Source: Labilibaculum sp.
Lineage (GTDB): Bacteria > Bacteroidota > Bacteroidia > Bacteroidales > Marinifilaceae
Direction: 5' to 3'
DNA: 64,000 nucleotides
Assembly: GCF_963664555.1 (NCBI RefSeq)
Contig: NZ_OY761461.1
Span: 2,170,001 to 2,234,000 of the forward strand
Below are positions 2,699 to 52,737 of the stretch, piece after piece. Made by a program: the position numbers and the translations under genes. The notes beneath the pieces are model-generated. The model made no database searches. It saw nothing but the letters and a program-made list of their open reading frames with translations, and was not told where the DNA came from. How positions within the stretch are numbered: the stretch's first letter is position 1; each line of letters starts with the position of its first letter.

Positions 2699-2704
2699 CA
2701 ATGC

Positions 2705-2885: not shown

Positions 2886-2986
2886 AACTTAATTTTCAAA
2901 ACATTCGGAGAAGATGTTTGGAAGACGATTGAATCATCTATTTCTTTTGTTCTGTCCTTGTGTTTTCTTCTTTATCAAATTATAAG

Positions 2987-35165: not shown

Positions 35166-35707
35166 GAAAGTTTCCTGAAAGCCAGATTAAAATGCAATGG
35201 ATCGTTTCTGATCGGCAAAATGCATCCTCTTCTGCGGAGGTTCTGAACGAAACCAATCAATCAATTTCAAAAAATTACTTTGTTGTTTTCTTGCCTAGAA
35301 ATATCAGAACACAAAATAGTGTAAACATATTTTTTATGATTTCCTGTTACAATTAAAAAAAGATAAGTACATTCGGTTTCTAGTAACGATAAGTAATTAC
35401 AAATTAGTCTTGTTATTGGGAGGAGTAAGAACAATATTCTTACTGGAAACTAATTTAGGATGTATTTGAGAGCTGAACATCTAAGCGGACTATTGAAAAA
35501 TGAGTTCAATAAAAGTAGGCCTTACTGCCTGTATTTTGGGAAATGTGGATAATGGTGAATAAAACCGGCAAATTAAGACTCAAAACATAATATGTGTACA
35601 TTACTGCCCAATATGGGTCGGTAAATACACTTTTGCAATAAATATAAACGAAATAAAGCCCATTGCTTTATTTAAGAGTTGGGCACAAGCAAAAAACAAA
35701 TCTAAAA

Positions 35708-35959
35708 ATGAATAAGAGATTCTATTATATACTGATGGTTTTATGTATTTGTGGAATTCCTTTTTTCGGGTTTGGAATAATAAATACATTGGTCAGTTTA
35801 AAATACGAGACAGAAGGAGTAAATGAGTGCATTTCTTTGACGACAAGCTATGACTTGTGTTTGACACTGAATATTCTGAAAGGATTGACATTATTATGTA
35901 CTATATCATTATTCATTTTAATAGTATTTAAGCAAAAATTAATTAAAACAAGAAAATAA
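35708..35959 (+). CDS. Small two-helix membrane protein (cassette 1)
   Basis: This 83-residue protein has two hydrophobic helices (YYILMVLCICGIPFFGFGII and LNILKGLTLLCTISLFILIVF) separated by a polar segment with two Cys. I recognise no family. The ATG at 35708 is preferred over the frame opening at 35663, which would start inside the recombination boundary. It is the first gene of cassette 1, nine bases before the second. Confidence 0.65.
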   Translation: MNKRFYYILMVLCICGIPFFGFGIINTLVSLKYETEGVNECISLTTSYDLCLTLNILKGLTLLCTISLFILIVFKQKLIKTRK

Positions 35960-35968
35960 AGCTGACCT

Positions 35969-36319
35969 ATGACTGAATTAGTAAAACTCTATTGGAAAGT
36001 TTATCGATTAAAAATAGCAATTGTAATTACATTAATAATAATCGGGGCAACATTATTGCTACCGTTGTTAAAGGTGGAAACATTTGATTTAGTTGAATCA
36101 TTGATCCAAAGCGTAATCGCAATAGGATTATATATAATTATGACTCCTGTTTTTGTGATTGGTTATTATTTCTATAAAAAACAGCAACAGGACAGAAATC
36201 CTGGATATAAGATGGAATTGCCAGACATATATAGCCTTGACATATATTTAAGTGTTTATACTGTTTATGCGACTTTAGCTTTTATAGCAAGTCTCTTTAT
36301 GGACAATATATTTCATTAA
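35969..36319 (+). CDS. Three-helix membrane protein (cassette 1)
   Basis: This 116-residue protein has hydrophobic segments at about 13-33, 40-66 and 88-114 and no recognised family. It is co-transcribed with the preceding small protein. Two-gene cassettes of membrane proteins are sometimes toxin/immunity-like, but nothing here shows that. It ends 11 bases before R'' of attC1. Confidence 0.65.
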   Translation: MTELVKLYWKVYRLKIAIVITLIIIGATLLLPLLKVETFDLVESLIQSVIAIGLYIIMTPVFVIGYYFYKKQQQDRNPGYKMELPDIYSLDIYLSVYTVYATLAFIASLFMDNIFH

Positions 36320-36330
36320 AATAAATGCCA

Positions 36331-36525
36331 GTGCCCAACAATGCATAATAAGGCATGTGGGGAGCAGTGCTTCGCGAGCGGTGGTGATTTCTATTTGACC
36401 GCCTAATACTTTTAAAGTTACTTTGTTTTGTTAAATTAGTCCCTTGTAAAAGCATTAGGCTCAGTGTGGTTTTGGAAAGGCAGACAATTTCAATCCCCAC
36501 ACAGCCTCATATGCCAACGTTGTGG
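36331..36525 (+). other. attC-like site 1 (between cassettes 1 and 2)
   Basis: R'' GTGCCCAAC (36331-36339) pairs with the cassette 1 start, and R' is GTTGTGGGG at 36519. The inner arms are imperfectly complementary (GCATAATAAGGC...GTGGGGA against TCCCCACA...GCCTCATATGC). The centre holds a second hairpin (CCTAATACTTTTA / TAAAAGCATTAGG). At 195 bp it is long for an attC. Confidence 0.7.
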
Positions 36526-36595
36526 GGCATGCAAAAAAAGACCTCGTTATAATCTTATGGGAGATTAATATAAAAATTGTCATTAGAGAAAAACT

Positions 36596-37312
36596 ATGAA
36601 AAAATTGATTTCAACATTAATCCTGACATTTATAATCTTGACTGGATACGGACAAGAAACGGGAAAGAATTTTATCGACCAAAATTACATTGAAGTAACT
36701 GGGCATGCTGACAACGAAGTCGTCCCGGACAAGATTTTTCTGAAATTTTTCATAAACGAGAAAGATTTTAAGAATCAAACACTTTCTGAAGTTGAAGCAA
36801 AAATGATTCAAAAGCTTAAAGAAATCGGGATTGACGTTGACAAAAAACTAGCGGTTAAAGACTTTGTTAGTAATTTCCAAAACTATTGGATTCTAAAACC
36901 AGACATTAGACTAATCAAAGAATATGAACTATTAGTAAATGATGCGAAAACTGCGGGAACTGTTTTTCTTGAGTTTGAAAAAATCGGGATTTCGAGCATT
37001 TCAATTGATAAACTCGAAAATAGTGAAATTGACAAATACGAACTCGAAGTCAAAGTTAAAGCCATGAAATCAGCACAAGAAAAAGCTAAAGCTATTGCCA
37101 CTTCAATTAATCAAGATATTGGAAGAGCGATATTGATTCAAGAGAATCCAAATTTTGTGAGAGTTGAGAATGCTATTCAAGGCAGAGTAGCAGGAATTCA
37201 GATAAGGGGTGTTTCATCGCTAAAAAAGTCATCGAGCGTTGGGGGAGCAAACATTGAATTTGAAAAGATTAAACTAGAATATAACATAATTGCAAGATTT
37301 GAATTAAAATAA
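36596..37312 (+). CDS. SIMPL domain (DUF541) protein, exported (cassette 2)
   Basis: This 238-residue periplasmic protein has a signal peptide at about 1-19 (ends TGYGQ) and a SIMPL/DUF541 domain typified by YIEVTGHADNEVVPDKIFLKFFI and EKAKAIATSINQDIGRAILIQE. Family members (for example BP26/Omp28) form oligomeric beta/alpha assemblies at the envelope. Unusually, residues about 196-208 read AIQGRVAGIQIRG, nearly identical to the plug signature of SusC-type TonB receptors. It is the only gene in cassette 2. Confidence 0.85.
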   Translation: MKKLISTLILTFIILTGYGQETGKNFIDQNYIEVTGHADNEVVPDKIFLKFFINEKDFKNQTLSEVEAKMIQKLKEIGIDVDKKLAVKDFVSNFQNYWILKPDIRLIKEYELLVNDAKTAGTVFLEFEKIGISSISIDKLENSEIDKYELEVKVKAMKSAQEKAKAIATSINQDIGRAILIQENPNFVRVENAIQGRVAGIQIRGVSSLKKSSSVGGANIEFEKIKLEYNIIARFELK

Positions 37313-37319
37313 TGCACGA

Positions 37320-37398
37320 CCCCACAACACGTCGTATACTGCATAGCCTGCCGCAGGCGCAACACAGGCTACGCAGCATACGACCATCCGTTACCTGC
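37320..37398 (+). other. attC-like site 2 (between cassettes 2 and 3)
   Basis: This is the cleanest site in the array. R'' CCCCACAAC (37320-37328) is followed by GTCGTATACTGCATAGCCTG, which is complementary to CAGGCTACGCAGCATACGAC across a short loop, then CATCC and R' GTTACCTGC (37390). It has the AAC-AC-L''...L'-CATCC-GTT layout. The mismatched R'' and R' are expected because they belong to different cassettes. Confidence 0.87.
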
Positions 37399-37483
37399 AA
37401 GCTTAAAAGAGCCGCAGTCCAATAATGAGAATAGAGATTAAATTATGATATGACTAACATTAATAATAGGATTTCTAATCAGT

Positions 37484-37855
37484 ATGATTCTTTTTACTCT
37501 GTTCATAATGAATCTGGGATACAAACAAGGTAATCCTGAACTTTTGTATTTAGGATTAGGACTACCACTTTGGTTTTATTTCTTGATAATCTATGCAAAA
37601 TGGCTTAATCGAATTGAAGTGGAACAAGAATACTTTAAGATTAAGAATTTAATTTTTGGACAGAGAATTATAGACTACAAGGATATTGAACAATGGGAAG
37701 TAATTCAAACGACAAGAATCTCTCAGCAAAACTTATTAATAAGAGTAAAAGGAAAAAAGTTAGTTATTTCTAATATGATTGATACGGAGAATTATGAAAC
37801 TCTGCGCCATAGATTGAGAACTAATTGGACTGAATTAGAAAGGGAATATAAATAA
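37484..37855 (+). CDS. Membrane-anchored PH-like hypothetical protein (cassette 3)
   Basis: This 123-residue protein has two hydrophobic segments in the first 45 residues, then a beta-rich domain (EYFKIKNLIFGQRIIDYKDIEQWEVIQ ... LLIRVKGKKLVISN) reminiscent of bacterial PH-like domains. The function is unknown. Its TAA overlaps the next ATG (TAATG at 37853), so translation of the two genes in cassette 3 is coupled. Confidence 0.7.
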   Translation: MILFTLFIMNLGYKQGNPELLYLGLGLPLWFYFLIIYAKWLNRIEVEQEYFKIKNLIFGQRIIDYKDIEQWEVIQTTRISQQNLLIRVKGKKLVISNMIDTENYETLRHRLRTNWTELEREYK

Positions 37856-38280
37856 TGAAACGAATTATAGTAATACTTGGATTCTTAATTAGCATCAATT
37901 GTCTTGCTCAAGATAGCATACAGATTGATTCAATAAATAATGAAGAGATAGTTGATATTTTTAATACAATCCAACTTCTCAAAGAATTTAAAACTGAGAA
38001 TCTAATGATTCGTTTGTTTAGTTACGGGAATGAATCAGGAAGCGCTGGGTTTAATAATGGAGAGATTACAGATGATATTTATTTTGCAGTTTCTGAAATT
38101 GATGAATTGCCCAAACAATCGCTTTTTAGGATTAAAAATCTATACTCAACTGAGATTGTAAGCATTGTTGATTCTAAAAATGACAAAGTTCTAATTGCAT
38201 TAACACATATTGAGAATAAGACTAAAAAAACATTGAAATTAGAATTGACAATTAATGAATTAACAAAAGCCAGCAGGTAA
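37855..38280 (+). CDS. Exported hypothetical protein (cassette 3)
   Basis: This 141-residue protein has a signal peptide (MKRIIVILGFLISINCLAQ) and a short alpha/beta domain with no recognised family. It is coupled to the preceding gene through TAATG. Its stop codon is part of the R'' sequence GCAGGTAAC at 38273, a tight packing often seen in cassettes. Confidence 0.65.
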   Translation: MKRIIVILGFLISINCLAQDSIQIDSINNEEIVDIFNTIQLLKEFKTENLMIRLFSYGNESGSAGFNNGEITDDIYFAVSEIDELPKQSLFRIKNLYSTEIVSIVDSKNDKVLIALTHIENKTKKTLKLELTINELTKASR

Positions 38281-38391
38281 CAAAGTATATAACTAATGGC
38301 AGTATTCATACGGGTTTCAGCGGTTTTAACCCGCATTAATTTTGGCTACGGGCTGACAAGAAATTGCGCCGCAAACTGCCCACTAGTCATA

Positions 38392-40329
38392 GTGTGCCAA
38401 GAAGCTGCACATCGGCATAAAACAGTGCAGCATGCTTTATTTGAGATGGTGGATAGCAGTTGTAAGCTAGACCCACCGGTGTCGTTTTACAGGAAAGGGC
38501 ATCAAACCACCTAAAGGTGCTGTGGTAAAGAGCCATGGTATTGAGCGTTTAGGAGAATCTATACCGAGAGTATAGCAGGTATTAATAGAAGAGATGAACG
38601 AAAGTGAACCACTGATGAGGTATCGAGAAGTGGATAAATTCTGTCAAAAGTCGCAAAGTATGTTATGCGATGATAAGTGCAACGGAAACCTGTTTATTGG
38701 TTGCACGGCAGGCGGGTTATTCCCTTCGGTCATGATCTCCACTTCGTTACGGTACAGGTGGCATGACTTCTATTTAGGCTCATATAAGGAACTTGGGAGC
38801 CTGTGTTGTAATGTGAAGTGAAAGGCGCAATAAGTACAACTTAGAGGCCGAATAGCAATGTACAACAACAGGGACGGATCTATCCGTAGTAGTGTTGATG
38901 TTTCTGTAATGGAAATGGAGCAAAGGGATAGAGTCGTATGGTTTTAGAACAGAAATCAACTCGATAAGAGGATGAATCTATGGAATGAAACGAAATCGGT
39001 ACCAATAAGTCGTACCATGATATGGAATGCTTACAAACAAGTGAAATCCAATAAAGGAAGTGCTGGAGTTGATGAGATTGGTTGGGATGAATTTGAATCC
39101 AACCGATCACAACAACTCTACAAACTCTGGAATCGTATGGCATCGGGGAGTTATCTTCCACCGCCAGTAAAAGAGGTTGAAATTCCGAAAAAGGATGGAA
39201 AAATGCGTAAGCTAGGAATTCCTACTATTGTCGATCGCATCGGTCAACAAGTGGTCAAGAATTATCTAGAACCAAGATTTGAATTAATTTTCAGCAACAA
39301 CAGTTATGGCTATCGACCTAGTCGAAATGCGCATCAAGCATTAGAGGAGGTTCAGCGTAATTGTTGGAAAAACGACTGGGTAATTGATTTAGACATCAAA
39401 GGGTTTTTCGATAATATTGATCATGCAAAACTGATGCTGGCGGTACGAAAGCATGTAGCCGAGAATTGGGCGTGTGTGTACATCGAAAGATGGTTGCATA
39501 TGCCAATTCAACGAAGAAATGGGGAATTGATACAAAAACAAGGAAAAGGCACACCGCAAGGTGGCGTTATCAGTCCATTGTTGGCGAATCTGTTTCTACA
39601 TTATGCTTTCGATAAATGGTTAGAGAATCTAAATTCCAATGTGAAATTTGAGCGTTATGCTGATGATGCCATAATTCACTGTAGAACCAAAAGGCAAGCA
39701 GATTGGCTGCTGAACAAATTGCACGAAAGAATGGCTGAATGTCATCTTGAATTGCATCCCGAAAAGACCAAGCTGGTTTATTGCAGAGATTACCGCAGGC
39801 AAGAGAAACATAAGAATGTCAAGTTCGATTTCTTAGGTTATAGCTTTCAGCCACGCAGTAGTAAATCGCAGAAAACAGGAAATCTTTTTCAAGGTTACGG
39901 TTGTGCAATCAGCATTTCTTCACGTAAGAAGATCGCTGAAAAGTTAGCCATTTCGCTAGAAGAAAGTAAAACGTGTAGAAGTATTGTGGGAATAGCACAA
40001 CGGCTTAATCCTCAAATAAGAGGCTGGCTTAATTATTACGGCAAATTCCGCATGTGGGAAATGCATCATGTTTTCCGCTTACTACACTCTCGCTTGGTTC
40101 GATGGGCACGACGAAAGTACAAACGTTACAAGAATAGTATTTGTCGCGCTTATGCGTGGCTTAAGAGAATAAAGAAACAGTTTCCATATTTGTTTTATCA
40201 CTGGAAATTGAATTTTTCTATTTAACTTGTAACTCGATTTATATACGACAAGAGCCGTGTGATGGGAGACTATCAAGCACGGTTCTGTGAGAGGCTTAGG
40301 GTGAGACTCCCTTTGCCTACTCGACTACT
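38392..40329 (+). mobile_element. Group II intron, copy 1 (full length)
   Basis: It starts GTGTGCCAAG, fitting the GUGYG 5' end, and ends in a domain V/VI region. Domain V is GAGCCGTGTG...CACGGTTCT at 40252-40286, and domain VI is GAGAGGCTTAGGG...CTCCC up to the CTACTCGACTACT end. The reverse transcriptase ORF lies between them. Length is about 1,938 bp. Copy 2 (46200-48102) is 35 bp shorter owing to one deletion near 46523 and has only a few other differences. The shared 3' boundary was located by comparing the two copies. Confidence 0.92.
38972..40225 (+). CDS. ltrA: Group II intron reverse transcriptase/maturase (copy 1)
   Basis: This 417-residue intron-encoded protein promotes splicing and retrohoming. 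The RT domain has KKDGKMRKLGIPTIVDRIGQ, GYRPSRNAHQAL, DIKGFFDNIDH, GTPQGGVISPLLANLFLHYAFD and catalytic YADD (229-232). The C-terminal maturase X domain has IRGWLNYYGKFRMWEMHHVFR. There is no HNH endonuclease domain. The protein is identical to that of copy 2, implying recent duplication. Confidence 0.96.
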   Translation: MNLWNETKSVPISRTMIWNAYKQVKSNKGSAGVDEIGWDEFESNRSQQLYKLWNRMASGSYLPPPVKEVEIPKKDGKMRKLGIPTIVDRIGQQVVKNYLEPRFELIFSNNSYGYRPSRNAHQALEEVQRNCWKNDWVIDLDIKGFFDNIDHAKLMLAVRKHVAENWACVYIERWLHMPIQRRNGELIQKQGKGTPQGGVISPLLANLFLHYAFDKWLENLNSNVKFERYADDAIIHCRTKRQADWLLNKLHERMAECHLELHPEKTKLVYCRDYRRQEKHKNVKFDFLGYSFQPRSSKSQKTGNLFQGYGCAISISSRKKIAEKLAISLEESKTCRSIVGIAQRLNPQIRGWLNYYGKFRMWEMHHVFRLLHSRLVRWARRKYKRYKNSICRAYAWLKRIKKQFPYLFYHWKLNFSI

Positions 40330-40628
40330 AACCGTTGTAAGCAAGTGTGGAAAACGCAACTCGACACATTGAAACTTGATTGAAATAATTACAAAAAACG
40401 GGTTGATTAGTTTTGTTCTCCGTTGATAGGGCGGTGCAGTTTGTTGGGAATTTATTTTGTTTTTTCTCCTCCCGCGCAAAGAAAAAGAAAACCCCACCCA
40501 CAAAACAACACATTTGCAAACCGCTGCAAGCCAGCCCTGCAAACCAAAGTATGCAAAAGAGTTGTTTTTTGCCAGCGCACACGTGCATTTTTGTTACATT
40601 TATGGGTTTTATAAATAATGGTATTATC
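40330..40628. other. 5' region of cassette 4 with promoter-like element
   Basis: From the GTT boundary at 40334 to the first gene there is no supported coding sequence. TACATTTA (40595-40602) is close to the Bacteroidota -7 consensus, 27 bases before the start at 40629, so this cassette may carry its own promoter. Confidence 0.4.
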
Positions 40629-42017
40629 ATGTTAAAGAACTATTTAAAAATCATTCTAATCTTTATTATGGTTCCTGTATTTGCAAAGCAGAAACAGGAT
40701 GTGAAATCATTAAAACCACGCATCGTAGTTCTAACTGATGTCTCAACATGGGAAACTGACGATAGTGAATCTTTGGTGAGGCTGCTAGTGCATGCCGACA
40801 TGTTTGAAATTGAAGGAATCATTTTTACAACTGGTTGGAGTCTTGATAAAACTCGTGATGACTTTTTTCAATTGATTCATGATGCCATTGATGCATACGA
40901 AAAAGATTTGCCAAATCTCATGAAACGGTCAAATCAGGTTGATTTCAAGACAGATGAAACACAACAATTTATAGGTTATTGGCCAAGTGCAGATTATCTG
41001 CGAAAACAAACTGTATTTGGCAGTAAACAAAGAGGAATCGACAAAATTGGTGTAAATAACATCTCTGATGGTAGCAATCTGATAATTGAGCTTGCTGATG
41101 AAAACGACGATAGACCTCTTTGGATTTTACTTTGGGGAGGCGGGAACACATTGGCTCAAGCTATTTGGCAAGTACAACAGGATAGAAATGAAGCTGAATT
41201 AAAAACTTTTTTGCATAAAATACCTACCTATGCAATTACCGACCAAGACAGAGGTTATGAAAAAGGAACTCCTTACAACATTAGTTCACATCAATGGATA
41301 CGTAAAGAATTTGAGAAAGACCTTATGTTCCTTTGGGATGAGTGTGCATGGAAATATCAAAATGGAACAGGTCGTGAAAAATGGGATGAATATGCGCTTA
41401 ATATCCAGAGTCATGGAAATCTCGGGAAAGTTTATCCCAAATATAAGTATGGTGTAGAAGGAGATACCCCTTCATTCCTTTATTTAATGCCAAATGGTTT
41501 AAGTAGCCCCCTTGTTTCAAATCAGGTTAACTGGGGTGGTTATTTTGAATGGGGTATTTGTCCGGATGATACTACTTTTGCATTTACTAATCATGCTGGA
41601 AAAGCTTATGATATCTGCAACAAATATCAAGCTTGTTTCTATTTAGCCACTTTCAACAATTTTGCCGCCCGTATGGATTGGGCAGCTTACGGTAAGGGCA
41701 ATCGAAACCCTATTGTAATTATTAATGATAATGGTGGCACAGAACCCATTTCTATTGAACTGAAACAGGGAAAAGAGGTTTCTCTTGATGCTTTAAAATC
41801 TTATGACCCCGAAAATGATAATTTAAGTTTTAAATGGTGGATACAGCCCGAAGCTGGAACCTATAAGCAGGAGATTGTCATTAACAACAAAAATTCCAGC
41901 AAAATCAACATTAAAATTCCTCAGGAAATACATGGGAAAAGTATTCATGTGATTTGCGAAGTAACTGATAATGGAGAACCAAATCTCACGAGTTACCGAA
42001 GGATAATCATACAATAA
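40629..42017 (+). CDS. Sde182-like nucleoside-hydrolase-fold protein (DUF1593), exported (cassette 4)
   Basis: This protein has 462 residues from the ATG at 40629, chosen because it begins a signal peptide (LKNYLKIILIFIMVPVFA). The frame extends upstream through low-complexity sequence without one. The N-terminal domain (about 28-360) is nucleoside-hydrolase-like, with RIVVLTDVSTWETDDSESLVRLLVHADMFEIEGII holding the Asp-rich metal-binding motif. The C-terminal ~95 residues form a PKD/Ig-like module (LDALKSYDPENDNLSFKWWIQPEAGTY). Such proteins are called cellulose-binding Sde182 homologues and occur in plant-polysaccharide loci. It is followed after 42 bases by a GH115 gene, suggesting xylan or related glycan metabolism. 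Confidence 0.85.
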   Translation: MLKNYLKIILIFIMVPVFAKQKQDVKSLKPRIVVLTDVSTWETDDSESLVRLLVHADMFEIEGIIFTTGWSLDKTRDDFFQLIHDAIDAYEKDLPNLMKRSNQVDFKTDETQQFIGYWPSADYLRKQTVFGSKQRGIDKIGVNNISDGSNLIIELADENDDRPLWILLWGGGNTLAQAIWQVQQDRNEAELKTFLHKIPTYAITDQDRGYEKGTPYNISSHQWIRKEFEKDLMFLWDECAWKYQNGTGREKWDEYALNIQSHGNLGKVYPKYKYGVEGDTPSFLYLMPNGLSSPLVSNQVNWGGYFEWGICPDDTTFAFTNHAGKAYDICNKYQACFYLATFNNFAARMDWAAYGKGNRNPIVIINDNGGTEPISIELKQGKEVSLDALKSYDPENDNLSFKWWIQPEAGTYKQEIVINNKNSSKINIKIPQEIHGKSIHVICEVTDNGEPNLTSYRRIIIQ

Positions 42018-42059
42018 ATAATTATAAGATTTTATTAAATCATAAAACACATTAACAGG

Positions 42060-44921
42060 ATGAAGAAATTCTTTTTTATTGCTCTATTACTTCCACAAGT
42101 TTTGTTTGCACAAATTCAAGTAATCCATCAATCTGCCAAAAATGATGACTGTTTTACAATTGTAAATCAAAAAATAAGTGCTTCAATTTATTTCGATACT
42201 ACAGATTATGAAGTTGTTCATAAAACAGCTCAATTATTTGCTTCAGATATTGAGATGATTTCAAATAAGAAACCGTTGATACTAACTGATAGTAAAAAAC
42301 TAAAAGGTAATATAATTATTGTAGGAACAATTGGTAAAAATCAATTGATAGATAGACTCATTGCTGAAAAACGACTAATTGTTGATAGTATACAAAACCA
42401 ATGGGAGCGATTCATCATTGAAACAATTGATAAGCCCTTCAAAGGAGTAAAAAAAGCATTAGTCATTGCAGGTAGTGACAGAAGAGGAACTTCTTATGGC
42501 ACCTTTACCCTGTCGGAAAAAATGGGTGTTTCACCCTGGTATTGGTGGGCGGATGTACCGGTGAATAAAAGAAAGGAGTTGTATATCAAAAATACATCAT
42601 ATACCTCTAAGGCTCCATCGGTAGAGTATCGGGGCATCTTTTTAAACGATGAAGACTGGGGCCTTCACCCATGGGCTGCAAAAAATATTGACCCCGAAGT
42701 TGGAGATATTGGCTCCAAAACCTACGAAAAGATTTTTGAATTATTGTTGCGTTTAAAAGCAAACATGGTAGCTCCTGCCATGCACGAATGCACAAAAGCT
42801 TTCTATACCGTACCCGGAAACATGGAAATGGCAGATGCTTATGGTATCATGGTTACCACCAGTCATTGCGAACCTCTTTTATACAACAACGCAAGTGAGT
42901 GGAATAAAAAAACACAAGGTGAGTGGAACTACGCAACCAACAAAGCGCAAATAGTTGAAGTGCTTGACAGTCGTGTTAAGCAGGCTCATGAAAACGAAAA
43001 TATATACACCATTGCTTTGAGGGGTATGCACGATGAGGGCATGAAAGGTGACTCGGACAATGATAAATTGAAAATGCTTGATGAGGCAATAAACGACCAA
43101 CGTTTTATATTATCAAAATATATCGACAAACCGCTATCTGAAATTCCACAGATTTTTGTCCCATACAAGGAAGTTCTGGGACTTTACGAAAAAGGCCTTG
43201 AAGTACCGGAAGAAATTACTATTGTTTGGCCCGATGACAATTATGGATACATTAAAAAACTAAGCAATCCAGATGAACAAAAGCGAAAAGGCGGTTCAGG
43301 GGTGTATTATCATCAGTCATACCTTGGATGGCCTAACGATTATCTATGGTTAAATTCCACTCCACCGGCATTAATGTACACCGAAATGCAAAAAGCTTAT
43401 TCCTTGGGAGCCGATAAATACTGGCTTTTAAATGTTGGGGATATTAAACCGGGAGAAATGGGGATGCAACTTTTTTTAGATATGGCATGGGATTTTAGCC
43501 GATTTAATTTCGATAATATCAATCAGTATCAGGTAGAAAAACTTTCTGCAATTTTTGGTGATGAGTATCAAGATCAGTTGGATTTCATTCTGGATAGATA
43601 TTATTACCATGGTTTTACCCGGAAACCCGAATACATGACCTGGGACTGGCGATGGAACAGTCTATTTCAGGTAGAAAATGTAAAAGACACGGAATTTTCA
43701 TTTATTAATTACAAAGAAGCCGAAAACCGACTTGCCGAATACAACAAAATTTCAGAAATGGGAAAAGCCATTATGAATGAATTGCCAGAAGAAAAGAAAG
43801 CTGCATTTTTCGAGTTAGTATATTATCCAGTAAAAGGCGCATCGTTGTATAACCACGAAATGTTAACAGGACAAAAAAACAGATGGTATGCTTCACAAGG
43901 CAGGGCTTTAACAAATGTATTGGCAAATGATGTTAAATTGTATCACGACAGCCTGGCTTCACTAACTGCTGAATTCAATAATTTGCTTGATGGTAAATGG
44001 AATGGTATGATGACTGCTCCGGGTTTTTTGCCTAAAGAACAATTATCTCCGACAAAGACAATAGAGTTGCCTGACACATCAGGTATGGCATTATTCGTAG
44101 AAGGTCAGTCCTCAGATTCTGCAATCTACTTGACCTTGCCAAAGTTTAATAGCCTCTTTAATGAAACTCATTTTTTTGAAGTTTATAATATAGGTAACAT
44201 CCCATTCTCATATAATGTAAATACAACATCATCCTGGATTCTGCTTGATAAAAACAAAGGGGATGTTAAAGAACAACAACGTGTTAATGTATCCATCGAT
44301 TGGGATTTAATCCAATATGATACGGAGGTCAATGGAGAAATTATTATTTCAGATGGAAAGGCCACAAAAACCATTCAGGTTACAGCTGTCCGACCTGAAA
44401 AGAACTTCAAAAATGTTTTTATTGAAAACAACGGGGCAATTAGCATTCGTCCAACAGATTTTCAACACAAAACAGAAAATGGGAACATTCAATTTCAGTC
44501 GATTGAAGGTTTGGGTTATTCAAATACCTCCCTTCAATTAGGCAATGCAAAGTATGATTCCGGTAACGGGTCATATGTGGAATATGATTTTTTTGTAACA
44601 GATACAGGTGATATTACTATTTTTACATATATGCTGCCATTGTTTGCTAAAGATAAATCTCATAGCACACAATATGGCGTGCAGGTTGACAATATGGATA
44701 TGGTTTTGCTCCATAATGACGTTAAAGAATATTCGAGAGAATGGGCTGCAAATGTGATAAGGAACAGTGCTATTAATAAAACAAGTGTAACAATAAATCA
44801 ACCCGGTAAGCATACACTTCGCATTTATTCAGTTGATTCGGGAATGATAATTCAAAAAATTGTAATTGACACAGGAGGTCTTAAGGATTCATATTTAGGC
44901 CCTATACCTGGTAAATTTTAA
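42060..44921 (+). CDS. GH115 alpha-glucuronidase (cassette 4)
   Basis: This exported 953-residue glycoside hydrolase family 115 enzyme removes (4-O-methyl)glucuronic acid from xylan, including internal positions. The signal peptide is about 1-17 (ends LLPQVLFAQ). The family core includes GTSYGTFTLSEKMGVSPWYWWADVPV, EYRGIFLNDEDWGLHPWA, LLRLKANMVAPAMHECTKAFY and ALRGMHDEGMKGD. A C-terminal beta-sandwich of about 150 residues (GNGSYVEYDFFVTDTGDITIFTYMLPLF) closes the protein. It is co-transcribed with the Sde182-like gene. A catabolic gene of this size is rare cargo for an integron-type cassette. Confidence 0.95.
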   Translation: MKKFFFIALLLPQVLFAQIQVIHQSAKNDDCFTIVNQKISASIYFDTTDYEVVHKTAQLFASDIEMISNKKPLILTDSKKLKGNIIIVGTIGKNQLIDRLIAEKRLIVDSIQNQWERFIIETIDKPFKGVKKALVIAGSDRRGTSYGTFTLSEKMGVSPWYWWADVPVNKRKELYIKNTSYTSKAPSVEYRGIFLNDEDWGLHPWAAKNIDPEVGDIGSKTYEKIFELLLRLKANMVAPAMHECTKAFYTVPGNMEMADAYGIMVTTSHCEPLLYNNASEWNKKTQGEWNYATNKAQIVEVLDSRVKQAHENENIYTIALRGMHDEGMKGDSDNDKLKMLDEAINDQRFILSKYIDKPLSEIPQIFVPYKEVLGLYEKGLEVPEEITIVWPDDNYGYIKKLSNPDEQKRKGGSGVYYHQSYLGWPNDYLWLNSTPPALMYTEMQKAYSLGADKYWLLNVGDIKPGEMGMQLFLDMAWDFSRFNFDNINQYQVEKLSAIFGDEYQDQLDFILDRYYYHGFTRKPEYMTWDWRWNSLFQVENVKDTEFSFINYKEAENRLAEYNKISEMGKAIMNELPEEKKAAFFELVYYPVKGASLYNHEMLTGQKNRWYASQGRALTNVLANDVKLYHDSLASLTAEFNNLLDGKWNGMMTAPGFLPKEQLSPTKTIELPDTSGMALFVEGQSSDSAIYLTLPKFNSLFNETHFFEVYNIGNIPFSYNVNTTSSWILLDKNKGDVKEQQRVNVSIDWDLIQYDTEVNGEIIISDGKATKTIQVTAVRPEKNFKNVFIENNGAISIRPTDFQHKTENGNIQFQSIEGLGYSNTSLQLGNAKYDSGNGSYVEYDFFVTDTGDITIFTYMLPLFAKDKSHSTQYGVQVDNMDMVLLHNDVKEYSREWAANVIRNSAINKTSVTINQPGKHTLRIYSVDSGMIIQKIVIDTGGLKDSYLGPIPGKF

Positions 44922-45197
44922 TTTGTTTAAAAATTGTAATTTTTCGATATGTCAATTAAATGCCAACCCTATTTCTTAGCACATTGGCAAGTCACACGAG
45001 CCAGGCTCAGACCAAAACTTGCCAAAGAGCTAACAAATGCCAGCCCTGTTACCGCCTTTAAGGGCGGTTTGGGGTTTGCCCACCCACAAAAAACAAAATA
45101 AATTCGTGCTCCGTAGCAAGGTCAGTGCAGATTGATTAAGATAAAATATTAGATTTGTAAAAACTTGTAACAGATTGACTTTGAAGAATGAACACCA
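44922..45197. other. 3' non-coding part of cassette 4
   Basis: There is no gene. It contains a long inverted repeat at 44976-45033: TTAGC...TTGGCAAGT...GAGCC with GGCTC...ACTTGCCAA...GCTAA. A small ACCGCC/GGGCGGT hairpin near 45050 may act as a terminator for the GH115 transcript. Confidence 0.5.
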
Positions 45198-45333
45198 GCT
45201 TACAACACGCGGTAAAAAACATTGGGGGGTGCAGTGTGTCAGTCAACATACTGTCTCGCCCCAGCATCAGTAACGGTGGATACGAACGCAGCCCGTTCAC
45301 CCCAACGATTTCTTACCGCCATCCGTTGTACGG
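45198..45333 (+). other. attC-like site 4 (between cassettes 4 and 5)
   Basis: R'' GCTTACAAC (45198-45206) matches the cassette 4 start 4.9 kb upstream. GCGGTAA-aaaACATTGGGG pairs with CCCCAACG-atttc-TTACCGC. Then CATCC and R' GTTGTACGG (45325) follow. The layout is the same as site 2. At 136 bp it is similar in size to long attC sites. Confidence 0.87.
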
Positions 45334-45479
45334 CATTCCCCACATCAGACGAGCCGATTAATTTCTATCGCTAACGTCAATAATTGAGAGGGAATAAAGG
45401 TGAGAATGAAGAGTTTTTAAAACATTGAATATTAGCAATAAAATTTGACGTTAGTCAGAATTTGAGAGAACCTGCAAAC

Positions 45480-46127
45480 ATGAAAATAATAGATATGATT
45501 AAAAAACAAAACATGACCAGATTGTCATCCTTGATTGGATTGAGTATAATCTTGATTCTGAGTTCTTGTCAATCAAATAAAAAGAGTAAGACAGATTACC
45601 AAATTGACACTAAAGACAGTATTGCTAAAATTGAAAGCCATGAACTTGTTCAAGAATCTGAGATAACAGAGATTGACACATTAACGGTTCAAGACAGAAA
45701 ATTAGAAGGTGGCAATTTTCATAGTCATATAAAACTGGATTTTGCATTATCAAAAACTCAAATTAAGGACACCGCACAGATACGATTGATAAATAAAATA
45801 TGTGCGATTTCTGTGATTCCTGATACATCGTGGATTAATAAACAGCAGATTGAGATGGGTGACGATTGGAACGAAGTGGTGAGTGACAATCAATATTATG
45901 ACCAGTTAGCGATTGATACATTGGAAAAACTAGATATCCCAACATTTTTCGCACCCAGAGAAAAAAGATTTATCAATTTTGTTAAGACTGATAAGTCAAG
46001 CTATATGATTGATTTGACAAAAATGAAAGATGCTTGGGGATTGATTTTATTCAACGGGATTGATAATCCAGTTTTATGGAGTAATACCGATATTGACAGT
46101 GAATTGAAAGAAATATATAAAAAATAA
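45480..46127 (+). CDS. Hypothetical lipoprotein (cassette 5)
   Basis: This protein has 215 residues from the ATG at 45480; a start at 45513 (MTRLSSLIGLSIILILSSC) would give a tighter lipoprotein signal. The lipobox is LSSC followed by QSNKKSK. The mature domain is charged, with no recognised family. It is the single gene of cassette 5. Confidence 0.65.
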   Translation: MKIIDMIKKQNMTRLSSLIGLSIILILSSCQSNKKSKTDYQIDTKDSIAKIESHELVQESEITEIDTLTVQDRKLEGGNFHSHIKLDFALSKTQIKDTAQIRLINKICAISVIPDTSWINKQQIEMGDDWNEVVSDNQYYDQLAIDTLEKLDIPTFFAPREKRFINFVKTDKSSYMIDLTKMKDAWGLILFNGIDNPVLWSNTDIDSELKEIYKK

Positions 46128-46199
46128 ACGCCGTACAATCGAATAGCCCGCCCCGCTAGTAATCACTAGCAGGGAGAGGCTTTCACACCACTGTACGTA

Positions 46200-48102
46200 G
46201 TGTGCCAAGAAGCTGCACATCGGCATAAAACAGTGCAGCATGCTTTATTTGAGATGGTGGATAGCATTTGTAAGCTAGACCCACCGGTGTCGTTTTACAG
46301 GAAAGGGCATCAAACCACCTAAAGGTGCTGTGGTAAAGAGCCATGGTATTGAGCGTTTAGGAGAATCTATACCGAGAGTATAGCAGGTATTAATAGAAGA
46401 GATGAACGAAAGTGAACCACTGATGAGGTATCGAGAAGTGGATAAATTCTGTCAAAAGTCGCAAAGTATGTTATGCGATGATAAGTGCAACGGAAACCTG
46501 TTTATTGGTTGCACGGCAGGCGGTGTTCAGGTGGCATGACTTCTATTTAGGCTCATATAAGGAACTTGGGAACCTGTGTTGTAATGTGAAGTGAAAGGCG
46601 CAATAAGTACAACTTAGAGGCCGAATAGCAATGTACAACAACAGGGACGGATCTATCCGTAGTAGTGTTGATGTTTCTGTAATGGAAATGGAGCAAAGGG
46701 ATAGAGTCGTAAGGTTTTAGAACAGAAATCAACTCGATAAGAGGATGAATCTATGGAATGAAACGAAATCGGTACCAATAAGTCGTACCATGATATGGAA
46801 TGCTTACAAACAAGTGAAATCCAATAAAGGAAGTGCTGGAGTTGATGAGATTGGTTGGGATGAATTTGAATCCAACCGATCACAACAACTCTACAAACTC
46901 TGGAATCGTATGGCATCGGGGAGTTATCTTCCACCGCCAGTAAAAGAGGTTGAAATTCCGAAAAAGGATGGAAAAATGCGTAAGCTAGGAATTCCTACTA
47001 TTGTCGATCGCATCGGTCAACAAGTGGTCAAGAATTATCTAGAACCAAGATTTGAATTAATTTTCAGCAACAACAGTTATGGCTATCGACCTAGTCGAAA
47101 TGCGCATCAAGCATTAGAGGAGGTTCAGCGTAATTGTTGGAAAAACGACTGGGTAATTGATTTAGACATCAAAGGGTTTTTCGATAATATTGATCATGCA
47201 AAACTGATGCTGGCGGTACGAAAGCATGTAGCCGAGAATTGGGCGTGTGTGTACATCGAAAGATGGTTGCATATGCCAATTCAACGAAGAAATGGGGAAT
47301 TGATACAAAAACAAGGAAAAGGCACACCGCAAGGTGGCGTTATCAGTCCATTGTTGGCGAATCTGTTTCTACATTATGCTTTCGATAAATGGTTAGAGAA
47401 TCTAAATTCCAATGTGAAATTTGAGCGTTATGCTGATGATGCCATAATTCACTGTAGAACCAAAAGGCAAGCAGATTGGCTGCTGAACAAATTGCACGAA
47501 AGAATGGCTGAATGTCATCTTGAATTGCATCCCGAAAAGACCAAGCTGGTTTATTGCAGAGATTACCGCAGGCAAGAGAAACATAAGAATGTCAAGTTCG
47601 ATTTCTTAGGTTATAGCTTTCAGCCACGCAGTAGTAAATCGCAGAAAACAGGAAATCTTTTTCAAGGTTACGGTTGTGCAATCAGCATTTCTTCACGTAA
47701 GAAGATCGCTGAAAAGTTAGCCATTTCGCTAGAAGAAAGTAAAACGTGTAGAAGTATTGTGGGAATAGCACAACGGCTTAATCCTCAAATAAGAGGCTGG
47801 CTTAATTATTACGGCAAATTCCGCATGTGGGAAATGCATCATGTTTTCCGCTTACTACACTCTCGCTTGGTTCGATGGGCACGACGAAAGTACAAACGTT
47901 ACAAGAATAGTATTTGTCGCGCTTATGCGTGGCTTAAGAGAATAAAGAAACAGTTTCCATATTTGTTTTATCACTGGAAATTGAATTTTTCTATTTAACT
48001 TGTAACTCGATTTATATACGACAAGAGCCGTGTGATGGGAGACTATCAAGCACGGTTCTGTGAGAGGCTTAGGGTGAGACTCCCTTTGCCTACTCGACTA
48101 CT
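46200..48102 (+). mobile_element. Group II intron, copy 2 (full length)
   Basis: About 1,903 bp, near-identical to copy 1. It starts GTGTGCCAAG and has domain V at 48025-48059 and the same CTACTCGACTACT end. Differences are a 35-bp deletion beside 46523 in the RNA portion before the ORF and a few substitutions. It is inserted in domain V of a minus-strand intron remnant. Confidence 0.92.
46745..47998 (+). CDS. ltrA: Group II intron reverse transcriptase/maturase (copy 2)
   Basis: This 417-residue protein is identical in sequence to the product of 38972-40225: RT domain with YADD at 229-232, X domain, no endonuclease. The two genes being unchanged while flanks differ shows recent mobility or gene conversion. 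Both copies appear intact and potentially active. Confidence 0.96.
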   Translation: MNLWNETKSVPISRTMIWNAYKQVKSNKGSAGVDEIGWDEFESNRSQQLYKLWNRMASGSYLPPPVKEVEIPKKDGKMRKLGIPTIVDRIGQQVVKNYLEPRFELIFSNNSYGYRPSRNAHQALEEVQRNCWKNDWVIDLDIKGFFDNIDHAKLMLAVRKHVAENWACVYIERWLHMPIQRRNGELIQKQGKGTPQGGVISPLLANLFLHYAFDKWLENLNSNVKFERYADDAIIHCRTKRQADWLLNKLHERMAECHLELHPEKTKLVYCRDYRRQEKHKNVKFDFLGYSFQPRSSKSQKTGNLFQGYGCAISISSRKKIAEKLAISLEESKTCRSIVGIAQRLNPQIRGWLNYYGKFRMWEMHHVFRLLHSRLVRWARRKYKRYKNSICRAYAWLKRIKKQFPYLFYHWKLNFSI

Positions 48103-48195
48103 CAACGTTAGCCTTAATTGGATAGATTGTTGTAAAAATGAAAACAATAAGTATTAATCAATATATAATATCATTTAAATATATATATAGCGGAG

Positions 48196-48750
48196 ATGAG
48201 TAGAACTTTAATATTTCTTGTATTTAGTTGCATGACTTCTTTTTTATATGCACAGACTTATAATCAATTGGTTTCTGATAAACGCATGAATGAATTTTTG
48301 GATAGCTACTTAAATGATTTCTCCAAGACCTTGAATAATTACTCAAATCAAGAATTGACAATTGATATTTGTCCAATGCGATTTAATAATCCAGATTCTC
48401 TACTAAAATACTTTTATGACTGGAATAGTTTGTTGGACTGTTCAGACTTTGACTTAGATTCACTTTTAAAAGAACATGACAAAACTGATATCGTGAATCA
48501 AATAAAATCTCAGAAAGAATTTACTTGGAGAATAACTCATTCGGCATTTTCCTTCGCTAAGATTAGGGAACCTAAATGGACAGATTTATATTACAGATTG
48601 AGTATGCCGATATTTTCAAAATCAAGAGAAGTTGCTATTATTAAGCAGACTAGAGAATGCGGAGACGATTGTGGAGAATTAATGATTAATGTTTATCTGA
48701 AAAAAGAGAATAAATGGATTTTAATAGCTGGATGGGGATATGTTATATGA
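48196..48750 (+). CDS. Exported hypothetical protein (cassette 6)
   Basis: This 184-residue protein has a signal peptide ending in SFLYAQ. The mature part is alpha/beta with a Cys pair near the end (ECGDDCGELMINVYLKKENKWILIAGWGYVI), reminiscent of NTF2-like or DUF4348-type folds, though I cannot place it firmly. It is the single gene of cassette 6, 17 bases from R''. Confidence 0.6.
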   Translation: MSRTLIFLVFSCMTSFLYAQTYNQLVSDKRMNEFLDSYLNDFSKTLNNYSNQELTIDICPMRFNNPDSLLKYFYDWNSLLDCSDFDLDSLLKEHDKTDIVNQIKSQKEFTWRITHSAFSFAKIREPKWTDLYYRLSMPIFSKSREVAIIKQTRECGDDCGELMINVYLKKENKWILIAGWGYVI

Positions 48751-48776
48751 AAAAATAAAAAAACAACTAAGGCTAA

Positions 48777-49556
48777 TCGAATAGCCCGCCCCGCTAGTAA
48801 TCACTAGCAGGGAGAGGCTTTCACACCACCAGATACTTCGCAAGCTCAGCATAAACCAAGCGGGTCTCGTATACAGTCCCGAGGAATCGGGATTAAGTTG
48901 TGGGGAAATTTTCTTGTAAATGTCGAGCATAGATTCATAACCACGTTTCCGCAATCTTTCAAGAGTAATAGTAGTTACCAAAATAGGACTCTGAGCTATG
49001 ACTCATAAAATCATTTTATAGTAAGGTATTCGAGAGGGCTTCGCCGTAGCCCAACCACCCATGATTCATAAAGTACTTATTTTTATGGGCATTCATGAAT
49101 TCGTTCCTCATTACGTGAACGAGACCATGCATAGGCTTGTCCTTGCTGAACGCCCAAACGGATAAGGCTTCGCCTTTTCTTTTCGGGTTTCTTCTCCCGA
49201 GGATCGGGACCATATACAATACCTGAGCCTGTTGCGCAGCCAACCGTCGAGATCTTGAAGTTTGACTAAAATACTTGCCATACGGAAGTTATTTACCCAA
49301 CCCCGCTGAACCTCATTCAGTTTTTGGATGCGTTCTTCGAGCCTGTTCAAACTGTAAAGTAAAAAGACTAATGCTGTAAGGCTGTCTGTGAGGCAATCAC
49401 CCCATCTTCTTAATCGTAATGCTAGAGTTAAAAGTAGCCCAAATAATAACCTCAATTCTATTTCCAAATAAAAGGATTTTCAATTTTCAGGTATCCTTAA
49501 AACCGCTATATTTAACACTTCATTGAGCAGTTTGATGAGTTTTTAGACGGACTGCC
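48777..49556 (-). mobile_element. Intercassette module A: decayed group II intron in an attC-like site
   Basis: On the minus strand this 780-bp module ends with a group II intron 3' end (domain VI CCTCTCCCTGCTAGTG/ATTACTAGCGGGGCGGG, then CTATTCGA). The 3' exon is TTAGCCTTA, the complement of R'' of cassette 6. Upstream is the maturase C-terminus (EERIQKLNEVQRGWVNNFRM, LQDLDGWLRNRLRYCIW, VTTITLERLRKRGYESMLDI) in broken frames. The intron is truncated at about 49350; the rest (49353-49556) is unrelated and ends GACGGACTGCC before R' GTTACCAGC. It is nearly identical to module B. Small palindromic inserts interrupt the maturase frame. Confidence 0.85.
49195..49209. repeat. Palindromic micro-insert in the maturase relic of module A
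   Basis: TCCCGAGGATCGGGA interrupts the minus-strand maturase frame. Removing 16 bases rejoins YCIW to KKPEKKRRSLIRLGV, the expected continuation in this protein family. It is present in all three modules. Confidence 0.75.
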
Positions 49557-49571
49557 GTTACCAGCAACTTT

Positions 49572-50297
49572 ATGAAGACAGCAACTGACATACAAAATAT
49601 CATTGAAAAATATAAAGAAGGACACCGTCATTTTATAAACCTTGACTTTGATAAAGGTGAAAAATTGACTGGACAAATTCTTGCTGATTCGACATTTGAT
49701 AACTGTTGCTTCTCGGTTGACTTTTCACAAACGAACTTTTCAAATGCAAAGTTTACTAACTGTAATTTAAAATGTTGTGATTTTATAAACTGTAACTTGA
49801 CTAATTCAAGATTTGAAAATTGCTCACTCGAAAGCACAGATTTTAAAAATGCACTGATTGAGGGAATAAGTATGATTAATTGCTATTGTTATGGACAATT
49901 AGTTTCAGTAAACAACGAGTCAGGAGAACTTGAAACTGTCAAAGATGATTTGGTTAAAGAACTTTATGACCATATTCCTGAATTAAAAAAATTAACAGAC
50001 CAATCGAATGATGACCAATCTTATTTAGTATATGGCGAATTAAGTCTAAAACTATTTGAGGACATTAAAAATAATTCAGAAATTACGGACTTTACTAAAA
50101 AGGCTTTTCAGTTTTTTAATAAACTTGGCAATCGAAATGACTCTGAAATTGATAATTTACTAGTAGTTGGAATTTATGAAGGACTTTATGCGGATAAAAA
50201 ATGTAATCGAATAGCAAGACAACTTTTATTAGACAGAAATAAAGAAGTTTATGAATATTGGATGATTAATGGAAACATTCGTTCTGACTATGAATAA
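49572..50297 (+). CDS. Pentapeptide-repeat protein (cassette 7)
   Basis: This 241-residue protein has pentapeptide (A(D/N)LxX-type) repeats at about residues 20-100 (ADSTFDNCCFSVDFSQTNFSNAKFTNCNLKCCDFINCNL) forming a right-handed quadrilateral beta-helix. A helical C-terminal half follows (SLKLFEDIKNNSEITDFTKKAFQFF). There is no signal peptide. Related proteins protect gyrase or act as effectors, but nothing here fixes the role. It is the single gene of cassette 7. Confidence 0.85.
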   Translation: MKTATDIQNIIEKYKEGHRHFINLDFDKGEKLTGQILADSTFDNCCFSVDFSQTNFSNAKFTNCNLKCCDFINCNLTNSRFENCSLESTDFKNALIEGISMINCYCYGQLVSVNNESGELETVKDDLVKELYDHIPELKKLTDQSNDDQSYLVYGELSLKLFEDIKNNSEITDFTKKAFQFFNKLGNRNDSEIDNLLVVGIYEGLYADKKCNRIARQLLLDRNKEVYEYWMINGNIRSDYE

Positions 50298-50314
50298 TAA
50301 AAAGCAGCTGGTAA

Positions 50315-51093
50315 TCGAATAGCCCGCCCCGCTAGTAATCACTAGCAGGGAGAGGCTTTCACACCACCAGATACTTCGCAAGCTCAGCATAAACCAAGCG
50401 GGTCTCGTATACAGTCCCGAGGAATCGGGATTAAGTTGTGGGGAAATTTTCTTGTAAATGTCGAGCATAGATTCATAACCACGTTTCCGCAATCTTTCAA
50501 GAGTAATAGTAGTTACCAAAATAGGACTCTGAGCTATGACTCATAAAATCATTTTATAGTAAGGTATTCGAGAGGGCTTCGCCGTAGCCCATCCCCCCAT
50601 GATTCATAAATACTTATTTTTATGGGCATTCATGAATTCGTTCCTCATTGTGTGAACGAGACCATGCATAGGCTTGTCCTTGCTGAACGCCCAAACGGAT
50701 AAGGCTTCGCCTTTTCTTTTCGGGTTTCTTCTCCCGAGGATCGGGACCATATACAATACCTGAGCCTGTTGCGCAGCCAACCGTCGAGATCTTGAAGTTT
50801 GACTAAAATACTTGCCATACGGAAGTTATTTACCCAACCCCGCTGAACCTCATTCAGTTTTTGGATGCGTTCTTCGAGCCTGTTCAAACTGTAAAGTAAA
50901 AAGACTAATGCTGTAAGGCTGTCTGTGAGGCAATCACCCCATCTTCTTAATCGTAATGCTAGAGTTAAAAGTAGCCCAAATAAGAACCCAAATTCTATTT
51001 CCAAATAAAAGCATTTTCAATTTTCAGGTATCCCTAAAACCACTATATTTAACACTTCATTGAGCAGTTTGATGAGTTTTTAGACGGACTGCC
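50315..51093 (-). mobile_element. Intercassette module B: decayed group II intron in an attC-like site
   Basis: This 779-bp near-copy of module A has the same domain VI, the same altered domain V, the same maturase fragments and the same palindromic inserts. It differs at a few positions (for example one base lost near 50606). It lies between R'' GCTGGTAAT (50307) of cassette 7 and R' GTTAGTCAG (51094). Confidence 0.85.
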
Positions 51094-51135
51094 GTTAGTC
51101 AGAATTAAGTCAACGACACCGATAAACAATACTAA

Positions 51136-51903: not shown

Positions 51904-51916
51904 TAACGTTTACTAA

Positions 51917-52673: not shown

Positions 52674-52737
52674 GTTAGTGGCAAGGACTAGGAGACCGAA
52701 TTTACAAATGATTAACCATAAATTGAAACTGAAAATC

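Follow-up and report, generated by a model that had tools for sequence, protein, structure and literature searches.

How do mobile group II introns come to lie inside integron attC sites on the top strand, in the direction of the cassette genes, when the introns usually found there, those of group IIC, take the bottom strand? The question is raised by a window of 64,000 nt (the whole stretch of DNA analysed here; C1:2170001-2234000 of the 4.97-Mb single-contig genome of a Labilibaculum sp.), in which two such introns interrupt an array of cassettes. Judged by ribozyme type, intron ends, insertion site, orientation, covariation of guides with exons and recurrence in other genomes, all of them read from sequence, these introns very probably belong to a lineage of mobile group II introns of RmInt1-like (class D-like, IIB-type) character that is specialised in integron attC sites, and the mechanism that best accounts for them is most likely base-pairing in the manner of RmInt1, not hairpin recognition in the manner of group IIC. 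The introns and their parts, including the reverse transcriptase (RT)/maturase open-reading frames (ORFs), are as follows.

38392-40325, + strand: intron copy 1 (1934 nt, GTGTG...TCGAC; ends placed by the third genomic copy and relatives; Rfam RF01999 and RF00029)
46200-48098, + strand: intron copy 2 (1899 nt; same basis)
38972-40225, + strand: RT/maturase ORF of copy 1 (417 amino acids, no endonuclease domain; RVT_1 and GIIM; TIGR04416)
46745-47998, + strand: RT/maturase ORF of copy 2 (protein identical to that of copy 1)
40252-40285, + strand: domain V of copy 1 (GAGCCG..., AGC triad; RF00029)

The two near-identical + strand introns reported by a first-pass annotation are thus present: aligned to each other, they agree in 1894 columns, with 5 mismatches and a single gap of 35 columns. 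Both carry the GUGYG...AY ends, the domain V and the RT/maturase of mobile group II introns, both were recognized by RF01999 (D1-D4-2) and RF00029 in an Rfam scan, and their RT showed no Pfam match other than RVT_1 and the maturase domain. Its closest named matches among those listed were from Marinifilaceae (100%) and Labilibaculum (92%). Two further copies exist in the genome, a full-length one at 835466 with a split RT frame and a minus-strand 5' fragment at 4083578. The 3' ends of the window copies lie at 40325 and 48098 (...CTACTCGAC). Copies 1 and 2 have CTACTCGACTACT in common before they diverge, and the first-pass annotation accordingly had ended the introns with TACT; the third genomic copy and the relatives, however, diverge after CTCGAC or its variants CTTGAC, CTCTAC and CTCGAT, so that TACT is 3' exon shared by chance, and the intron end, so placed, is AY, as is typical of group II introns. 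With this correction the GTT begins 8 nt downstream of both copies, and not 4-5 bases as had been proposed. Short insertions, GATCATGA-like or related, distinguish intron copies (copy 1 at about 38717-38752, genomic copy c4, and the relatives L036 and L147); one of them is common to copy 1 and c4 and lacking in copies 2 and 3.

The array into which the introns are set was delimited by its end boxes.

35678-53503, + strand: array of cassettes whose R'/R'' boxes match (five exact 9-nt pairs in a chain)
38273-38281, + strand: R'' box GCAGGTAAC of the cassette starting at R' 37390 (GTTACCTGC), an exact complement pair
38284-38303, + strand: L'' arm of the attC split by copy 1 (arm complementarity)
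38375-38391, + strand: L' arm ACTGCCCACTAGTCATA, the 5' exon of copy 1 (sequence and arm complementarity)
40334-40342, + strand: R' box GTTGTAAGC, 8 nt after copy 1 (partner GCTTACAAC at 45198)
48107-48109, + strand: GTT of the R' box, 8 nt after copy 2

The five pairs, each an exact 9-nt complement, are GTTGGGCAC (35678) with GTGCCCAAC (36331), GTTGTGGGG (36519) with CCCCACAAC (37320), GTTACCTGC (37390) with GCAGGTAAC (38273), GTTGTAAGC (40334) with GCTTACAAC (45198), and GTTAGTGGC (52674) with GCCACTAAC (53495). In the first four, the next R' follows the R'' within an attC-sized distance when intron length is discounted; a sixth pair (40938/46725) does not chain and was taken as chance. Copy 1 directly follows the long arm ACTGCCCACTAGTCATA, whose complement AGTATATAACTAATGGCAGT lies at 38284-38303 (score 26 against 14.3 ± 2.4 for shuffled sequences, 0/60 as high), as the first-pass annotation had noticed. 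Since the R'' before it ends the previous cassette and the R' after it starts the next, copy 1 splits an attC between L' and R'. The sites are attC-like, and the intact introns occupy the top strand and run the same way as the cassette genes, again as annotated. The cassettes, with R''/R' boxes and paired arms, have the appearance of an integron or of a cluster of attC sites lacking integron-integrases (CALIN). No ORF in the genome exceeded the cut-off of the integron integrase model TIGR02249; the best integrase-like one, 189 kb away, scored 197.4 bits against 265 for that model and 216.9 against 220 for NF040815 (a Xer/integron-integrase model), and the same search gave only below-cut-off signals in all 14 control genomes. 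A complete integron was on these grounds rejected, and the array is best called a CALIN, with a divergent integrase remaining conceivable. The cassette that follows copy 1 (40334-45206) has an unusual length of 4.9 kb, with ORFs of 534 and 953 amino acids without NCBIfam match.

Intron-free versions of such sites exist. The attC upstream of copy 1 is found empty in two genomes of the same genus, as CTAGTCATA CACGCACC GTTCATTGG in G005 and as CTAGTCATA TACGCACC GTCAGACTG in G003, and in both there are 8 nt from CATA to the G of the R' position, as for copy 1. A third genome, G004, has the empty sites CGCAACTTA GCAAGACC GTTATGC and CGAAACTTA GCAAGACC GTTAGGC and, elsewhere, an intron (L118) inserted after CGAAACTTA and followed by GCAAGACC GTTAGGTG. 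As judged from these comparisons, insertion is exact and without loss, and the predicted joined exons are CTAGTCATA/TACTAACC.

The same placement recurs in relatives, which were drawn from genome contigs (the best 80 of 583), 96 related genomes, and 395 genomes of the class, 393 of the order and 395 of the phylum. Plasmids (266 records) and viral contigs (36 loci), also searched, held no close relative (all below 60% identity, and at best 49%, respectively). Intron ends were sought in 105 loci, in 10 that were additional or repeated, and in 16 minus-strand loci (7 of them already among the 105). The top-strand set comprises 19 different insertion sites with an RT of at least 63% identity and at least 10 nt of 3' exon, including the window copies and copy 3; L109, L167 and L168 duplicate the sites of L034, L031 and L032 and were left out of the count. 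A GTT at offset 7, 8 or 9 was found at 18 of the 19 3' ends, each time preceded by C (CGTT, 18/19). Among the other relatives, with ends called automatically and at least 12 nt of 3' exon, it was found in 6/55 (L042, L102, L152, L162, L165 and L213), and CGTT in 0/55; in 42 further loci no end was found, including the clade members L028, L035 and L039, of which the last two were read by hand. A first control count of 0/19 had risen on this fuller counting, and for this reason the 6/55 count and the CGTT form are used here; three of the six (L152, L162 and L165) are copies of one intron. A GTT at 7-9 nt was not accepted as sole proof. An L'-like arm could be read in 17 of 18 5' exons, copy 2 being the exception. 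By mechanical ORF calls of at least 60 amino acids (minus-strand ORFs also overlap in several loci), 15 of the 16 two-ended loci (all but L031) have a + ORF ending no more than 400 nt upstream, and 14 of them have one starting no more than 250 nt downstream; the other two are L029, at a contig end, for which none is listed, and L166, which has a minus ORF there. On the strength of these sites, top-strand insertion into attC, co-oriented with the genes, is a real and recurrent specificity.

To which class do these introns belong? RF01999 fits the window copies, RmInt1, RmInt2, the tested attC top-strand introns and a second attC-sited clade on the bottom strand (see below), and a different D1-D4 model, RF02001, fits the group IIC intron of the genome. 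Domain V starts with GAGCCG in the window copies, GAGCGG in RmInt1 and AACCGCC in the IIC copy of the genome. The window RT is 48% and 46% identical to those of two Sinorhizobium meliloti GR4 families, whose copy numbers on two plasmids (4 + 3 and 5) agree with RmInt2 and RmInt1 in PMC5894124 and whose exon TTCAT-C-GATGAGA agrees with the second intron-binding site (IBS2), linker and IBS1 of RmInt1 in PMC3123198 (these and the papers named below are cited for the portions of their text at hand). It is 38% identical to the full-length RT relative of the bottom-strand family of the genome, which matches the GsI-IIC RT with 352 bits against 154.9 bits for the top-strand family. In a careful tree of 72 RTs (references only RmInt1/2 and IIC, none of class E; near-copies L168, L098, L083, L058 and L170 and RTs below 300 amino acids left out), the 16 attC top-strand RTs group in a single clade (100/100), and every one of the 70 non-IIC rows is separated from the two IIC rows (100/100). 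The frameshifted L034 and L039 were read in one frame, which leaves only noise in the later parts of both (34 X and an end branch of 10 for L034, 13 X for L039). The RT phylogeny and domain V that the first-pass annotation had proposed for the class assignment set the family apart from group IIC, and its view that the two families of the window are unrelated is borne out. In keeping with class D, the ribozyme is of the RmInt1 kind, the two exon-binding sites (EBS1 and EBS2) are placed as in RmInt1 and there is no endonuclease domain; the features of group IIC-attC introns are absent in RT and domain V (AGC, not CGC), in strand, in direction relative to the genes and in having an EBS2 that covaries with the exon.

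These guide sequences were located as follows.

38629-38633, + strand: EBS2 of copy 1 (AGTGG), pairing IBS2 CCACT at 38380-38384 (RmInt1 alignment, permutation)
46437-46441, + strand: EBS2 of copy 2 (AGTGG), pairing IBS2 at 46188-46192
38659-38662, + strand: EBS1 of copy 1 (TATG), pairing IBS1 CATA at 38388-38391
46467-46470, + strand: EBS1 of copy 2, pairing CGTA at 46196-46199 with one G-U

When the 5' regions were aligned with those of RmInt1 and RmInt2, EBS2 (ATGAA) and EBS1 (TTTCGTC) of RmInt1 fell in the same two loops as GTGG/GTTGC and TATG/TAAG of the clade, EBS2 being shifted by about two bases relative to RmInt1. The guides change along with the exons: in L030, GTTGC pairs GCAAC and TAAGTT pairs AACTTA; the EBS2 pairings are GTTGG/CCAAC in L031, AGTTGC/GCAACT in L032, AGTGGC/GCCACT in L108, GTGGGT/GCCCAC in L034 and CGTGG/CCACG in L107; and L036, with an unusual exon, has GGATGG with CCATCT. 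The best register of EBS1 is identical in all 18 introns and RmInt1/2. When exons were shuffled among introns with equal freedom of register (5000 permutations), the pairing scores were 90.0 against 64.1 ± 5.4 permuted for EBS1 (0/5000) and 80.0 against 66.1 ± 4.2 for EBS2 (5/5000), and for the 12 introns with different guides EBS1 gave 61.0 against 41.6 ± 4.6 (0/5000). Because of this covariation, and because RmInt1 has the same geometry in mutational tests (IBS2 at -13 to -9, IBS1 at -7 to -1), homing by sequence to the top-strand L' box is the most likely reading. EBS1, whose mapping against the exons the first-pass annotation had suggested, and EBS2 are thereby placed and covary with the L' box.

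The following course may be envisaged. The spliced intron RNA with its endonuclease-less RT would recognise the top strand of attC by two pairings: EBS2 with NCMAC, the C-rich part of the L' box found at about -14 to -8, and EBS1 with the CATA/CTTA that occupies -4 to -1, a pairing that in many cases reaches 5-6 bp. Reverse splicing would then put the intron between L' and R', with the GTT of R' following after 7-9 nt and the cassette genes pointing the same way, and priming would presumably come from the replication fork, as in RmInt1. The insertion would split the attC and thereby freeze the cassette, and the intron would presumably be spliced. By GC skew (20 samples), 4/4 genomic copies are co-directional with the fork, a placement that would make the sense strand the lagging template, which is the preference of RmInt1; neither point was given weight, with n = 4 and arrays having their own orientation.

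The family on the other strand, also indicated by the first-pass annotation, consists of three units and a remnant before copy 2.

46139-46199, - strand: decayed IIC remnant (domain V/VI end) that serves copy 2 as 5' exon (the decayed units start with this sequence)
about 48777-49556, - strand: decayed IIC unit 1 in an attC (borders approximate; two blocks match full-length IIC copies)
about 50315-51093, - strand: decayed IIC unit 2 (unit comparison)
about 51917-52673, - strand: decayed IIC unit 3 (unit comparison)

The units are 97.8-98.5% identical (777/789, 753/765 and 748/765), and only two blocks of unit 1 (227 and 92 nt) match the full-length IIC copies compared. They span from within R'' (...GGCTAA, ...CTGGTAA, ...ACTAA) to R'. 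Group IIC-attC introns insert in the reverse complement of R'', on the bottom strand, at TTGT/T (PMC7923331); since the decayed family occupies this usual place, the window holds two unrelated families on opposite strands of one attC array. Three adjacent cassettes with different genes carry the same 790-nt intron-bearing attC (48771-49560, 50309-51098 and 51913-52680), as if it had been copied onto several genes.

Several observations weigh against homing to the L' box. A search for copies at sites without hairpin or GTT boundary, which in the first-pass annotation would have refuted its reading, left the GTT boundary standing except in L034, the only one of the 19 3' ends without GTT (and without CGTT). 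Copy 2 has no attC arm in front of it: what precedes it is the domain V end of a decayed IIC intron, read on the + strand (CACACCACTGTACGTA). This 5' flank mimics the L' box and pairs with the same guides. The pairing of EBS2 is poor in c3, L028, L029, L039 and L172, as it is in the RmInt2 control, and EBS1 has a mismatch in c4, L029 and L039. The kinship of the introns makes the permutations overstate their independence, and in the set of 12 with different guides EBS2 gave 54.0 against 44.7 ± 3.6 (38/5000). Finally, the attC top-strand clade lies outside the 41-row group holding RmInt1/2 (97/96) in a tree without class E reference; classes D and E are taken as probable sisters (PMC3552965). 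Because of this position and this sampling, the label "class D-like" is used.

As for copy 2, its 3' flank (TACTCAACGTTAGCC) is an ordinary R' side, and the cassette ending at GCCGTACAA (46130) carries the IIC remnant in its R''. The two flanks (46139-46199 and 48099-48110) are not halves of a single attC and suggest that intron copies have recombined; had the intron first entered the IIC remnant and then recombined with another copy of itself, both flanks would be accounted for.

Could the introns instead recognise the attC hairpin as group IIC introns do, the ribonucleoprotein reading the folded top strand and inserting after the stem, with EBS1 as a minor aid? In favour are the attC-like arms that make up every 5' exon but that of copy 2, mostly with a facing arm upstream, and the position of copy 2 itself, whose 5' exon falls within a domain V strand, likewise a hairpin; such a role for IIB introns has also been speculated upon in PMC7923331. 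However, EBS2 covaries with the exon, while IIC introns are said there to be without an EBS2-IBS2 pairing, and insertion occurs inside the attC, between L' and R'. Nor do the folds favour it. The bottom strand is the more stable fold in 12/15 joined sites (DNA parameters; copy 2 excluded; mean 1.3 kcal/mol), the opposite holding for L032, L035 and L036, and in 5/5 empty sites; in several arms, A faces C on the top strand where the bottom strand has a G-T wobble. The Watson-Crick arm score was clearly above that of shuffled sequences in only 7/16 loci (at most 1/60 shuffles as high), and arm complementarity was for this reason not accepted as sole proof of attC. Hairpin recognition is thus unlikely, and the proposal that both families exploit the same hairpins is not supported. 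Base-pairing to an open L' box fits better, the intron using the less folded strand; structure may also play a role at the top-strand site.

It is less probable still that one old attC insertion was spread passively, by cassette shuffling and homologous recombination, and not by homing. The three decayed IIC units do show an intron-bearing attC common to different cassettes, and the flanks of copy 2 do not belong together, but L' arms and 3' exons vary between copies and genomes, the guides change with the exons, and the sites occur empty. That these are group IIC(-attC) introns with a chance position on the top strand, comparable to the one example from Enterobacter cloacae to which PMC7923331 refers, is hardly credible, for although an endonuclease-less RT of about 420 amino acids and the attC location are shared, IIC identity was excluded by the 38% RT identity, the 100/100 split of the tree, the other Rfam D1-D4 model, the AGC in domain V and the presence of EBS2.

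Homing by base-pairing to attC may not be confined to the top-strand clade. A second class D-like clade (L060, L082, L088, L090, L095, L096 and L115, with L160; fork 98/87) lies mostly on the attC bottom strand, just after the reverse complement of R'', with 5' exons ending in GTTAGGGGCTGGCT, GTTACCTGCTGGGCT, GTTGGCGGTTCGGCT, GTTGTAAGCAGGCT, GTTGTGCACAGGCG and GTTGGCAATAGTT. A whole attC was seen upstream by eye for L060, L082, L088, L090 and L115 (L096 and L160 were not clear); minus ORFs flank four of these five on both sides, and L090 upstream only. TAAC, fit to pair GTTR, occurs in the EBS2 loop of the six introns of this clade with the region aligned and of L160. Two further introns, L111 and L157, are inserted in the top strand, 12 nt downstream of where R' starts (after CCGTTAGCAGTAAT and CCGTTGGGCGAGAT), with AACG in the EBS2 loop and with EBS1 ATTGCTG facing CAGTAAT and ATTTCGA facing GCGAGAT, respectively. 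From these readings, which concern few sequences and pairings without a permutation test, it seems probable that class D-like introns came to home to attC on at least two occasions, perhaps on three, by adapting EBS1/EBS2 to different boxes on both strands: on the top strand at the L' box, between L' and R' (mode T); on the bottom strand just after the reverse complement of R'', with EBS2 TAAC facing GTTR (mode B); and on the top strand just after R', with EBS2 AACG facing CGTT (mode R; L111 and L157). If so, attC targeting is not a property of IIC hairpin recognition, and attC is a niche open to unrelated intron classes by way of different chemistry.

Among known systems, RmInt1 and RmInt2 of S. 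meliloti (class D, IIB3) are the most similar, with the same Rfam D1-D4 model, an AGC domain V, an endonuclease-less RT 46-48% identical, EBS1/EBS2 in the same loops and an IBS2 at about -13 to -9; they home, however, to insertion sequences (PMC5894124), whereas the target of the window lineage is the attC L' box, and the top-strand clade is outside their group. Group IIC-attC introns (S.ma.I2 and others), the kind of the decayed bottom-strand family, likewise target attC and lack an endonuclease, but have a IIC ribozyme with CGC, no EBS2, a bottom-strand hairpin target with TTGT/T in R'', and an orientation opposite to the genes (PMC7923331). The same paper describes what are, in its words, the first IIB introns tied to integrons, namely a CL1 intron after an attC and truncated class E pieces. 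The former, UHB.I2 (CL1, IIB1, from a soda-lake contig), is IIB-type, next to attC and in cassette direction, but it belongs to another RT class and lies just after the attC, a single case for which the part of the paper at hand reports no exon conservation. The latter, H.ha.F1 and H.ha.F2 (class E, IIB, Halorhodospira halochloris), are IIB-type in an integrase-less array, but are 5'-truncated, with no guides mapped in that text. The Enterobacter cloacae intron shares the attC top strand and the cassette direction, and differs in being group IIC and a single case. In a 2015 review (PMC4424553, in the portion available), attC insertion is a trait of class C, and homing one of all lineages but class C; unlike in that scheme, a lineage with IIB-type guides appears here to home to attC. 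Among the matches listed for class D introns or RmInt1 with integrons in the open-licence literature, there was no report of class D introns in attC, an absence that is not proof. A question of strand is also raised, in that IIC-attC introns use the recombinogenic bottom hairpin and the window lineage would pair with the top strand. Co-oriented introns are predicted to split and freeze cassette arrays, may be spliced out of cassette transcripts, and offer natural guide sets already matched to integron boxes, which would be useful for retargeting RmInt1-type introns.

Other relatives occupy other places. At least 18 of the 105 loci have, by eye, a 5' exon resembling TATGCGGATGACT, where another RT gene encodes its YADD motif (L041, L042, L044, L045, L048, L051, L053-L057, L059, L063, L066, L069, L070, L072 and L077), and L152, L162 and L165, three copies of one intron in genome G408, start directly at an apparent IIC-type intron 3' end (...CGTCTACTCGAT). 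In the window itself, an IS4-family transposase gene lies just past the last matched cassette (53736-54956, - strand), and a cobalamin riboswitch is found at 2691-2896 (+ strand).

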